The notes under the pieces were generated by a model that saw only the letters and a list, made by a program, of their open reading frames with translations, searched no databases and had not been told where the DNA came from. Positions 23,160 through 54,491 of a stretch of DNA of 64,000 nt are shown piece by piece. How positions within the stretch are numbered: position 1 is the first letter of the stretch; each line of letters begins with the position of its first letter. The DNA is from Cyanobacterium aponinum PCC 10605 (lineage in GTDB: Bacteria > Cyanobacteriota > Cyanobacteriia > Cyanobacteriales > Cyanobacteriaceae): positions 1,302,001 to 1,366,000 of the forward strand of contig NC_019776.1 in assembly GCF_000317675.1 (NCBI RefSeq), read 5' to 3'. The position numbers and the translations under genes are program-made.

Positions 23160-23579
23160 ATGAAATTATGTAAAAATCCCCCTCATTTAACCATTACTTG
23201 GCAAGAATGTAGCAATTTATAGCAACAATCCCTTTATTATTTAAAATCTATTCCTTTAGAAGATACAGATTATTTAGAAACCCAAAAACTATTAAGTAAC
23301 TATACAACTAATCTAGCAAAAATAAAAATCCAAGAGACAAAAGAAACAGAATCTTTAGAATACTTAAATCAAGCAGAAAAAGGAGTAGAAACACTACTAA
23401 AAAGTAACAATAATCAGCCTAATTATATCGCTAGTCAACTACAAGCTATTACCAATGATTTGGAAAAAGTTCAACCTGAAACAACTGCTTATCAAAAGTC
23501 CCAAGAATTACAAAAATTTGCAAAAGAAAGAAAAATTAAAACAATTTCAATAACTGATGTTACTGTCAAAATACTGTAA
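23160..23579 (+). pseudogene. Broken gene with in-frame amber stop, repeat-type hypothetical
   Basis: From the ATG at 23160 the frame reads MKLCKNPPHLTITWQECSNL, then TAG at 23220-23222, then QQSLYYLKSIPLEDTDYL and a further ~110 residues to the stop at 23579. The distal part has no start codon of its own. The TAG most simply arose from TGG, since WQQ-A/S-L-YL-IP is a common start of helical repeats in cyanobacterial proteins with Y-EAQ-LL repeats, somewhat like the protein at 59020. Function unknown; probably a fragment of a larger lost gene. Confidence 0.6.
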
Positions 23580-23609
23580 ACTAAAAATCTAGCATCAATT
23601 CAACCAATA

Positions 23610-23850
23610 AATTTATCTCGTTGACGTAAGATTCCCATTAAATAACGAGTAGGGGTCAACGTTATGATATAATTGATTGTGTGGAGTTAACGTCCACCTA
23701 CAGGGGGTCACCTCGAAAGTTGCGGTTAACCATGAATCGTCATGGTGTCTAGGTTTCCTAGATGGATATACGACCCAGTAAGGTAAGTACCAGTCAGCAT
23801 AACAACCCCCGTAAGAGAGGGGAGAATTGCAAGTAATTGCAGTTCAGAAT
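23610..23850 (+). ncRNA. Structured RNA candidate resembling HEARO / IscB omega RNA, without iscB
   Basis: About 240 bp with an unusual density of perfect stems: CTCGTT/AACGAG (23617-23649), GTGGA/TCCAC (23681-23697), CCATGA-ATCG-TCATGG (23730-23745), CTAGG-TTT-CCTAG (23749-23761), CCCC/GGGG near 23807-23822 and TGCAA-GTAA-TTGCA (23828-23841). Base composition is far less AT-biased than its surroundings. The CACCTCGAAAGTTGCGG core between stems resembles, from memory, the HEARO RNA motif found upstream of HNH-nuclease (IscB) genes, frequent in cyanobacteria. No iscB reading frame follows; the next gene is DUF3593. If the identity is right, this is an orphan element. The structure is seen in the sequence; the family name is inference. 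Confidence 0.5.
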
Positions 23851-23909
23851 TTTCTATTACAATCTTTGATTTAATGGTGAGAGTCGTCAAATATCAAATT
23901 ATTCCCAAC

Positions 23910-24233
23910 ATGGAAAGCATCATAAACAATCTTCTCAGTAAAGAAAACTTATTTGCTATATCCTTATTTCCTTATCTAGGCTTTTTATGGTTTCTCACTA
24001 AATCAGGAAAAGTACCCAAATTAGCTTTAATTGGTTTTTATCTTCTTCTCCTTTTTGTTGCTATTACTATTCCTGCCGGGCTGTATGCTGAAAATCATTA
24101 TCATACCACTCTCGCTAATGTTGACTGGTTACACGGAGGGGCAGAATTTTTCTTAACTTTATCAAATATTTTCGTGGTTTTGGGATTTCGTAAAATGGTA
24201 ATTACCGCAGAAAATCAAAACAATACTCAGTAA
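23910..24233 (+). CDS. DUF3593 membrane protein
   Basis: About 107 residues from ATG 23910 (an upstream ATG at 23874 would add 12). Three hydrophobic segments are visible: SLFPYLGFLWFL, ALIGFYLLLLFVAITI and FFLTLSNIFVVLGF. The AENHYHTTLANVDWLHGGAE stretch is the conserved centre of DUF3593, a family found in cyanobacteria and plastids with no defined function. The structured RNA region ends only about 30-60 bp upstream and may form part of its leader. No clear ribosome-binding site decides the start. Confidence 0.7.
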   Translation: MESIINNLLSKENLFAISLFPYLGFLWFLTKSGKVPKLALIGFYLLLLFVAITIPAGLYAENHYHTTLANVDWLHGGAEFFLTLSNIFVVLGFRKMVITAENQNNTQ

Positions 24234-52767: not shown

Positions 52768-54021
52768 CTACGCATTTCCGCTACGCTGAGAAATGCGTTT
52801 CTGACGCTTCTTCGCCCCAATTTGCCTCATGTTTCCACACTCGGTAGAGCTTGACGACTCTGCGTCTAAAGAGGCACGTTCCATACCCCTGATGTAATTT
52901 TCGATGACCATAGCGGCAGCAGTATCACGATTAGTAGTAAATCCACAGTTTTCGCACTTATGCACCCTCTCAGATAAAGATTTTTTCTTTTGATGTCCAC
53001 ATTTAGGACAAGTCTGAGAGGGTTTTACTTTGCGAGTAGGAATTTCTATGTACATTCCTCCTGCTTCTGTTACCTTATAAGCAATCATGGACTTGAGTTC
53101 TCCTATCCCTACATCTAAGATAGAGCGATTAAGTCCTGTTTTTTGCTTTTTACGTTTACTACCTTTTTTAGCTTTTTTGGTCATTCCCTTGATGTTAAGT
53201 TGCTCTGTACCGATGAAGCTATTACGGCTAACGATTTCTACCGATACTTGATGATGCCAATTGTGCCGTTGACGAGCAACTTTACTTTGAATTTTACCTA
53301 CGGCTTTAGCAGACTTTTTCCATCTACAAGAGGCTTTTATCCCTTTACGGGGATTTCTTTTTTTCCTAGCTTTCTTTGCAACTTTATTGATTTTTTGTTG
53401 AGATTCTTTTAAAAATCGAGGATTTTCGATAAAATTCCCCGATGAATCTGCTATAGCATCATTTACCCCAAAATCAAGCCCTATTACTCCCTTATCCGTT
53501 TGATAGCGAGTAGGGATACACTCTACCGTGATTGATGCGTACCATTTTCCTTGTTTGTACAGAATCGTACAGGTTTTAGGTTCACCCCAATCTCTAGCTT
53601 GTCCACGCATCTTAATTTCTCCTAAATTTGAGATTTTAAGCCTACCGTGCTTTCCGTTACTTAGAGCCTTCCATCCTGCTTTACAAGGATATGTCCATCC
53701 TCTGTAATGTCTAGCAGACTTGTACTTTGGATAACCCGACTTTAGTTTAAAAAATCGCTGAAAGGCAAAGTCAACACGCTTTACCGTTGCTTGGAGAGCA
53801 TGAGAACCTAGCTTCTTGTATTCTATCCATACTTCTTTAAACTCAGGTAAAGAATTTTGTTGCTCAAAATAAGTCACACTTCTACCATATCGCTTATATT
53901 GCTCCCTGCGATGAGTGATACACGCATTATAGAGATCCTTGTGCAATCTCCGCCAATAGTGCATTTTCTCGTTTTGAGCTTTATTCGGATATAGTCTAAA
54001 TGTAACTCTTTTTATAGCCAT
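52768..54021 (-). CDS. tnpB: TnpB RNA-guided endonuclease (IS605 OrfB)
   Basis: 417 residues with the RuvC triad intact: D183 (GLDFGVND), E273 (GTEQLNI) and D366 (TNRDTAAA). The zinc ribbon is C338-x2-C341...C356-x2-C359. The N-terminal OrfB_IS605 helix-turn-helix is present. TnpB cuts DNA guided by omega RNA made from the 3' end of its own gene and the right end of the element; the right-end hairpin overlaps the last codons here, as expected. Divergent from tnpA by 41 bp. Likely active as judged by residues. Confidence 0.9.
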   Translation of the reverse strand: MAIKRVTFRLYPNKAQNEKMHYWRRLHKDLYNACITHRREQYKRYGRSVTYFEQQNSLPEFKEVWIEYKKLGSHALQATVKRVDFAFQRFFKLKSGYPKYKSARHYRGWTYPCKAGWKALSNGKHGRLKISNLGEIKMRGQARDWGEPKTCTILYKQGKWYASITVECIPTRYQTDKGVIGLDFGVNDAIADSSGNFIENPRFLKESQQKINKVAKKARKKRNPRKGIKASCRWKKSAKAVGKIQSKVARQRHNWHHQVSVEIVSRNSFIGTEQLNIKGMTKKAKKGSKRKKQKTGLNRSILDVGIGELKSMIAYKVTEAGGMYIEIPTRKVKPSQTCPKCGHQKKKSLSERVHKCENCGFTTNRDTAAAMVIENYIRGMERASLDAESSSSTECGNMRQIGAKKRQKRISQRSGNA

Positions 54022-54062: not shown

Positions 54063-54491
54063 ATGCAGTTGGGGGATTGTGTATTGAAACCCAGAAAAAG
54101 CTCTCATAGTGTTTTTAGCGTTCACTTACATCTAGTTTTTGTCACTCATTATCGGAGAAAAGTATTAACAAAAGAAATGATTGTAAGACTAGGAGAAATG
54201 TTAGAACAAGTAGCAAAAAAGTTAGATTGCTTTATCTTAGAATTTAACGGTGAACCAGACCATGTACATATTTTGCTAGACTTGCATCCTAAAAATGCTA
54301 TCTCCACAGTCGTCGCTTGTCTAAAAAGCTCAACGGCTAGAATGCTAAAAAAGGAATTTCCTCAAGAAGTAAAAAAATACTATTGGGGGAAAGTGTCTTT
54401 CTGGTCTGGTTCTTATTACGTAGCTAGTACGGGTGGTGCGACTATCGAAAAGCTCAAAGAATATATAAAAAATCAGGAAGGGGGAAAATAA
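54063..54491 (+). CDS. tnpA: TnpA Y1 transposase (IS200/IS605)
   Basis: 142 residues. The HUH pair is in GEPDHVHILLDL (H67, H69) and the catalytic tyrosine in KLKEYIKNQ (Y134). The YYWGKVSFWSGSYYVAST segment is typical. It acts on single-stranded DNA hairpin ends, without target duplication. All key residues present, so it may be active. Its stop lies only 2 bp from the reading frame of the kinase's split 5' half on the other strand. Confidence 0.9.
   Translation: MQLGDCVLKPRKSSHSVFSVHLHLVFVTHYRRKVLTKEMIVRLGEMLEQVAKKLDCFILEFNGEPDHVHILLDLHPKNAISTVVACLKSSTARMLKKEFPQEVKKYYWGKVSFWSGSYYVASTGGATIEKLKEYIKNQEGGK

Follow-up and report, generated by a model that had tools for sequence, protein, structure and literature searches.

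Between an interrupted reading frame and a gene for a DUF3593 protein, the window (the whole 64,000-nucleotide stretch of Cyanobacterium aponinum PCC 10605 that was analysed) holds a GC-rich, structured island. GC content is 0.415 to 0.42 across 23600-23899, against 0.275 to 0.33 in two 200-base windows on each side. The stems are equally real. The core at 23698-23851 has a folding energy of −47.9 kcal/mol (z −3.38), which none of 200 shuffles matched, and the longer stretch 23681-23890 one of −59.9 kcal/mol (z −2.44), which 3 of 200 shuffles matched. A preliminary description, made from the sequence alone, had reported the island, its downstream DUF3593 gene and an inactivated gene just upstream, and all three hold up (Table 1). 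The span that it gave, 23610-23850, truncates the feature at its 3′ side. We find that the locus is very likely a gene-free mobile element of 274 bp that contains a standalone relative of the TnpB guide RNA (reRNA). Among the listed ORFs of at least 50 aa, the longest ATG/GTG/TTG frame across the core is 54 aa, on the minus strand, and the list holds no transposase gene inside the element. A tblastn search with the TnpB protein of locus L109, described below, found no tnpB homology within the 1618 nt upstream of the core. Because no tnpB lies in cis, we regard the RNA as a standalone variant, though it may work as a reRNA does. The 17-mer CACCTCGAAAGTTGCGG is located at 23709-23725.

Table 1. 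Features of the element and its surroundings (positions are those of the window)
Feature	Position	Strand	Basis
Neighbouring ORF with an in-frame stop, outside the element	23160-23579	+	Open in the fetched stretch of sister genome G001
TTTAT flank, target- or TAM-like, outside the element	23612-23616	+	Present in the G001 empty site
Gene-free IS200/IS605-type element, 274 bp, from just past TTTAT up to TCAA	23617-23890	+	G001 empty site; ends common to other copies
Left end with inverted repeat (CGTTGAC 23619-23625, GTCAACG 23655-23661)	23617-23661	+	Sequence common to other copies and L010
TATAAT, predicted −10-like box, starting 30 nt upstream of the conserved core	23668-23673	+	Prediction from sequence only
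First hairpin GTGGA...TCCAC, probable RNA 5′ end	23681-23697	+	Fold of 23681-23890
Conserved RNA core, 8 helices in the model, homologous to the tnpB 3′ end (reRNA scaffold)	23698-23851	+	R1 158.6 bits, the window copy being itself part of the model
Right end: GAATT, subterminal hairpin, TCAA	23847-23890	+	Fold; ends common to other copies
Predicted guide in the flanking DNA; length of 16-20 nt assumed from ISDra2	23891-23910	+	Directly after TTTAT in the empty site
DUF3593 neighbour gene, outside the element	23910-24233	+	PF12159, 136.4 bits

The ends of the element are fixed by an empty site in G001, a genome of the same genus. The joined flanks of the window copy match it over 439 of 440 query bases, with 423 of 440 aligned columns identical. 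There, ...AATAAATTTAT is joined to ATATC..., exactly at the two ends of the element, which sits between TTTAT and ATATC without a target duplication. Given this clean junction, we take TTAT as the probable target motif and the DNA that follows TCAA as the predicted guide; the guide stretch has one extra A in G001. We also searched with the joined flanks of nine other copies and followed three of these up by alignment in six loci. A copy in G344 has a clean empty site in G292. Another, on contig C30 of G321, has an empty site in G356 that is clean at the junction, with a right flank that is weak beyond about 10 bases. Two sets of candidate sites were rejected as not clean: those of the G321_C143 copy in three relatives, which have an extra stretch in the left flank, and that of the G344 copy in G324, where the motif differs. 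In each of the three empty sites read across the junction, TTAT is followed by what is the right-hand flank of the occupied copy, so the copy carries a predicted guide that is valid for its own site.

These ends recur. Of the 28 high-scoring gene-free copies with enough flanking DNA, 24 combine a left-end TTATC with a right-end TCAA, and element lengths range from 251 to 354 bp (the left end of one copy in this set, G292_C323_719768, is doubtful). Among 21 TnpB-borne loci inspected by eye, 11 have TTATC before the left end, with TCAA at the end. The left end of the L109 element in the window's own genome was looked for and not found. IS200/IS605 elements habitually insert, as seen here, 3′ of a short fixed motif and duplicate no target sequence, and TTAT may act as a TAM.

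Further copies, for which the preliminary description had proposed a genome search, were readily found. Besides the window RNA, its own genome (G000) holds five more near-complete copies and scattered copies of the ends, while G036 has five related copies and G093 has one. When named genomes were scanned for the pattern, 19 stretches turned up, all cyanobacterial by title, including Crocosphaera, Prochloron and Halothece. Plasmids gave no match to the element, and its pattern was not found in viral contigs. One match in G053 (L034) is short, lies inside a coding gene and was taken as chance. Group II intron matches adjoin copies L005 and L006, off the RNA. We rejected the idea that the RNA is part of such an intron, because only two of the six own-genome copies adjoin one. 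In two own-genome copies (L132:5011-5308, plus strand; L101:1951-2329, minus strand), the right end differs and a group II intron domain 5 lies immediately 5′ of the RNA; the L101 copy also adjoins the right end of another TnpB element. The same genome has an element of about 100 bp, L010 (G000:C1:1059867), which is MITE-like and has the same two ends without the RNA.

To compare the RNA with other sequences, we used a covariance model, R1, built solely from 12 gene-free copies. Their alignment has 38 consensus pairs, 18 of which show changes on both sides with the pair kept. The window's own genome has 33 TnpB-domain matches. Of the 30 whose 3′ ends were inspected, L109 alone has the sequence blocks of the RNA, which extend across the end of its coding region and its right end. 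R1 scores 70-76 bits at three TnpB loci of G036 and 67.2 bits at L109 (E 1.3e-11). This search covered 89 sources, which included every one of the 33 TnpB-domain loci of G000, 16 of the 17 in G036 and 10 of the 34 in G093; beyond the gene-free copies, L109 and the three G036 loci, it gave no match at E ≤ 1. The window RNA is homologous to the reRNA, or omega RNA, at the tnpB 3′ end. No Rfam family matched at gathering level on the window RNA or across seven loci with relatives. The product of L109 (485 aa; G000:C1:2789550-2791004) is a TnpB (NF040570, 267.7 bits against a cut-off of 100). Its RuvC D, E and D residues align with those of 8h1j, a TnpB of solved structure, and of the designed nuclease 9yyg. 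ISDra2 TnpB has a third such residue, a D, besides D191 and E278, the two that PMC8612924 names.

Across the order, R1 matches occur in at least 44 of 388 genomes, a lower bound since up to seven candidates were scored per genome under stricter filters, and L109 itself went undetected. Of 386 genomes sampled from the phylum, 11 matched, all within the window's order. We classified 114 matches, L109 and 113 from the order-wide search, by using the L109 protein as a tblastn query. Of these, a lower bound for the order, 54 overlap tnpB-like coding sequence, at its C-terminal end. The other 60 lack tnpB homology and include all 31 that score above 100 bits, a score gap that exaggerates the split between gene-free and TnpB-borne copies because R1 was built on the former. 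Five of the 60 gene-free calls are less certain, their upstream DNA being shorter than 300 nt: three belong to the 31 (0, 188 and 296 nt) and two to the other 29 (32 and 236 nt).

Base pairing is conserved in both kinds of copy. In 100 model-aligned sequences (98 distinct; gene-free and TnpB-borne), 93.4% of cells pair, and two-sided changes occur in 36 of the 38 pairs. We counted 878 cells with two-sided changes, against at most 190 in slid-partner controls; the alignment was fitted to the structure and thus favours it, and the margin over the controls is wide.

The gene-free copies include lineages of their own. The tree, from an unguided alignment, holds 105 distinct sequences: 51 TnpB-borne, 28 high-scoring gene-free and 26 low-scoring gene-free. 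All 28 high-scoring copies, with two low-scoring ones, fall in one clade that has no TnpB-borne member (support 92.9/99). The model alignment gives a wider split, with a support of 0.947. This high-scoring clade spans five families (f1, f8, f13, f23 and f25). A second gene-free clade of 15 members is separate (99.8/99). Four low-scoring gene-free copies, three from G348 and one from G062, are nested among TnpB-borne sequences and look like simple tnpB loss. The deeper branches between the groups of the tree are weakly supported, and relaxed coding constraint could draw gene-free copies together by convergence. Members of the second clade (L221, L224-L226, L247-L251, L253, L255, L256 and others) occur in several cyanobacterial families. 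By eye, they show a partly conserved leader before the core, for example GTCAGTAcAAGACTTtAAAAC, and a −10-like box.

A promoter-like box precedes the core at a fixed distance. Of the 30 high-scoring gene-free copies that have upstream sequence, 25, from 8 of 10 genomes, have a TANNAT that starts 28-30 nt before the core, mostly in the context TGTGnTAnnAT or TATGnTAtnAT. The copies are not independent, because their 30 upstream stretches comprise only 27 distinct ones, and many copies are near-identical. Anywhere within the 40 nt upstream, TANNAT is found in 26 of 30 copies, compared with 21% of shuffles and 23 of 49 TnpB-borne copies. The fixed position is the stronger point than mere presence. 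The box is missing at that place in five copies: those of G093, G109_821014 and G164, which form one sub-lineage, one degenerate copy and one interrupted copy. Hairpins that resemble the first hairpin of the window element are visible by eye in many other copies. The element probably transcribes its RNA from its own promoter.

Potential partner proteins are encoded in the same genomes. Y1 TnpA is present in seven of the seven genomes searched, G000 included. A TnpB at least 68% identical to that of L109 occurs in 9 of the 10 genomes with gene-free copies above 100 bits, although in several of them it is incomplete or lies at the end of a contig. The exception is G093, which has a gene-free copy and whose best L109 match is just 35% identical. 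TnpB-borne R1 matches, counted as lower bounds, are found in at least 8 of the 10 genomes with high-scoring copies and in at least 22 of the 378 others (Fisher p 2e-8, uncorrected for kinship or for the limit on candidates per genome). The window's own genome has at least six gene-free copies and one TnpB gene of the L109 type. The window itself also contains a divergent tnpA/tnpB pair, with a TnpB match at 52903-53103 (minus strand; 417 aa) and a Y1 TnpA match at 54108-54476 (plus strand). Same-scoring matches to this pair lie at two other places in the genome, and its TnpB locus (L113) has no R1 match.

PMC8612924 describes how ISDra2 TnpB, bound to a reRNA that takes its final ~16 nt from the flank, cuts the donor joint beside the target motif, after which repair restores the transposon. 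The window element has the scaffold, right end, flank guide and motif in place, and we propose its mechanism by this analogy. It starts from homology to the TnpB guide RNA, conserved pairing, defined element ends, a clean site in a sister species, a separate gene-free lineage and a TnpB in the genome. To these it adds presumed transcription, TnpB loading, cleavage and a presumed retention benefit, and we consider the full in-trans scheme of a guide-RNA-only transposon rather probable. A non-autonomous IS200/IS605-type element, with neither tnpA nor tnpB, would carry a standalone TnpB guide RNA. Its transcript would begin near 23680, fold into a scaffold over 23681-23890 and run on into flanking DNA, the first 16-20 nt of which, from 23891, would be the guide. 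A TnpB from elsewhere, here the 485-aa product of L109, would bind the RNA in trans. Once loaded, it would cut the empty site (TTAT plus guide), either once the element has been excised or where a sister chromosome lacks it, and repair off the occupied copy would restore the element. Mobilisation would fall to the TnpA of other IS elements.

We give even chances to a broader proposal, that Cyanobacteria harbour at least two lineages of guide-RNA-only transposons. Each would have two hairpin ends, a promoter and a self-expressed guide that programs TnpB in trans, and each insertion would give rise to its own site-specific guide. So far, the guide RNAs of TnpB have been described as coming from the tnpB 3′ end and its mRNA. 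If our proposal is true, TnpB would be a shared service for gene-free elements, comparable to crRNA and tracrRNA genes that lie apart from cas genes. It would be a natural two-part TnpB system and would offer a testable reason for the persistence of tiny elements. It could also represent a step from one-piece OMEGA systems toward separately encoded guides.

The element may instead be a passenger, which we consider unlikely, if the most serious alternative. It would then be a MITE-like IS200/IS605 derivative whose reRNA region was kept by chance, with an inert RNA and ends that are moved by TnpA. The ends of IS200/IS605 elements alone suffice for TnpA, and TnpA by itself could account for the kept ends seen here. 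The RNA-less L010 in the same genome and two non-standard model pairs in the window copy also agree with a passenger. However, one high-scoring clade extends over five families, and pairing is nevertheless kept in the combined alignment with many two-sided changes. TnpA has no need of the −10-like box that 25 of 30 copies keep at a constant spacing from the core. The second gene-free clade of 15 members, with a similar box and leader by eye, argues against a passenger as well. The preliminary description had offered a degraded element or an RNA working in trans as the two options. We reject simple degradation in view of the clean insertion site, the kept pairing and ends and the −10-like box found in most copies, whereas action in trans is plausible.

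A role as decoy or regulator is improbable. In that case the RNA would bind TnpB to titrate or redirect it, which would shield the host or compete with full TnpB elements, and would not retain the element. Its scaffold is the same as that of the TnpB-borne reRNA, and at least six gene-free copies face a single TnpB gene of the type in this genome; both points favour this reading. Nonetheless, the right flank follows TTAT in three empty sites, which makes the predicted guide valid for its own site and speaks against a decoy.

The preliminary description was right about the kind of RNA, an orphan guide of a transposon nuclease that is mobile, lacks its nuclease and plausibly acts in trans, and wrong about the family. 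Its reading as a HEARO/IscB omega RNA that has lost the nuclease is extremely improbable: a HEARO-like motif and a chance-level match to the HEARO model RF02033 that lies antisense to one G036 copy (13.5 bits, E 4.5) are outweighed by strong homology to tnpB 3′ ends and by the silence of RF02033 and of PF14239 in the window's own genome. At gathering score, the Rfam comparison that it had suggested gave no RF02033 match in the window; six loci that contain own-genome copies gave none at E ≤ 1, and the whole of G000 gave none at E ≤ 10. In a comparison search of eight genomes, the same model exceeded its cut-off at 11 places in G053 (best 141 bits) and at one in G093 (128 bits), and reached 68 bits, under the cut-off, in G026, so it does work on relatives; it was at chance level in G010 (E 3.5), as in G036. 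The HEAROs of these relatives differ in sequence from the window RNA. PF14239 had 0 matches in G000, the 14 control genomes in the same search being likewise silent, and it scores 238 bits on the IscB of the relative G026. In the ORF list, no frame of IscB size beside the element was taken for IscB. We note that the HEARO RNAs over cut-off (11 in G053 and one in G093) lie among loci L044, L045, L049 and L051-L063, and that loci L046 and L050 belong to G026, where an IscB gene adjoins the below-cut-off match.

Several known systems invite comparison. HEARO is an OMEGA-type guide RNA of a transposon nuclease, a general likeness to the window RNA. We reject it as the family here because it shows no significant match in sequence or structure, in contrast to the strong tnpB 3′-end homology. 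The palindrome-associated transposable elements and MITEs of the IS200/IS605 group are gene-free, have hairpin ends, make no target duplication and are presumably moved by TnpA in trans. The window element shares all of this and differs in its conserved, covarying guide-RNA region with a −10-like box. Guide RNAs away from their nuclease gene have precedents. Altae-Tran (2021) reportedly described trans-acting omega RNAs of IscB, and Meers (2023) may mention gene-free elements. Among the RAGATH-18 reRNAs of IS607 TnpB, 64% adjoin TnpB (PMC11061315). These cases involve another nuclease or another transposon family. Our literature search, which covered titles and abstract openings and mostly papers outside subscription, found no standalone TnpB guide RNA or RNA-only IS605 element. 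A further comparison is with the reRNA, or omega RNA, of IS200/IS605 TnpB (ISDra2 and relatives). Homologous sequence and helices lie at the 3′ end of the L109-type TnpB subfamily, and both systems have a right-end hairpin followed by TCAA, a flank that serves, or here is predicted to serve, as guide and a target motif before the left end. Known reRNAs coincide with the tnpB 3′ end and right end (PMC8612924) and can be cut from tnpB mRNA (PMC10278001). The window element, unlike these, has no tnpB, bears a −10-like box upstream and places its RNA in a separate clade.
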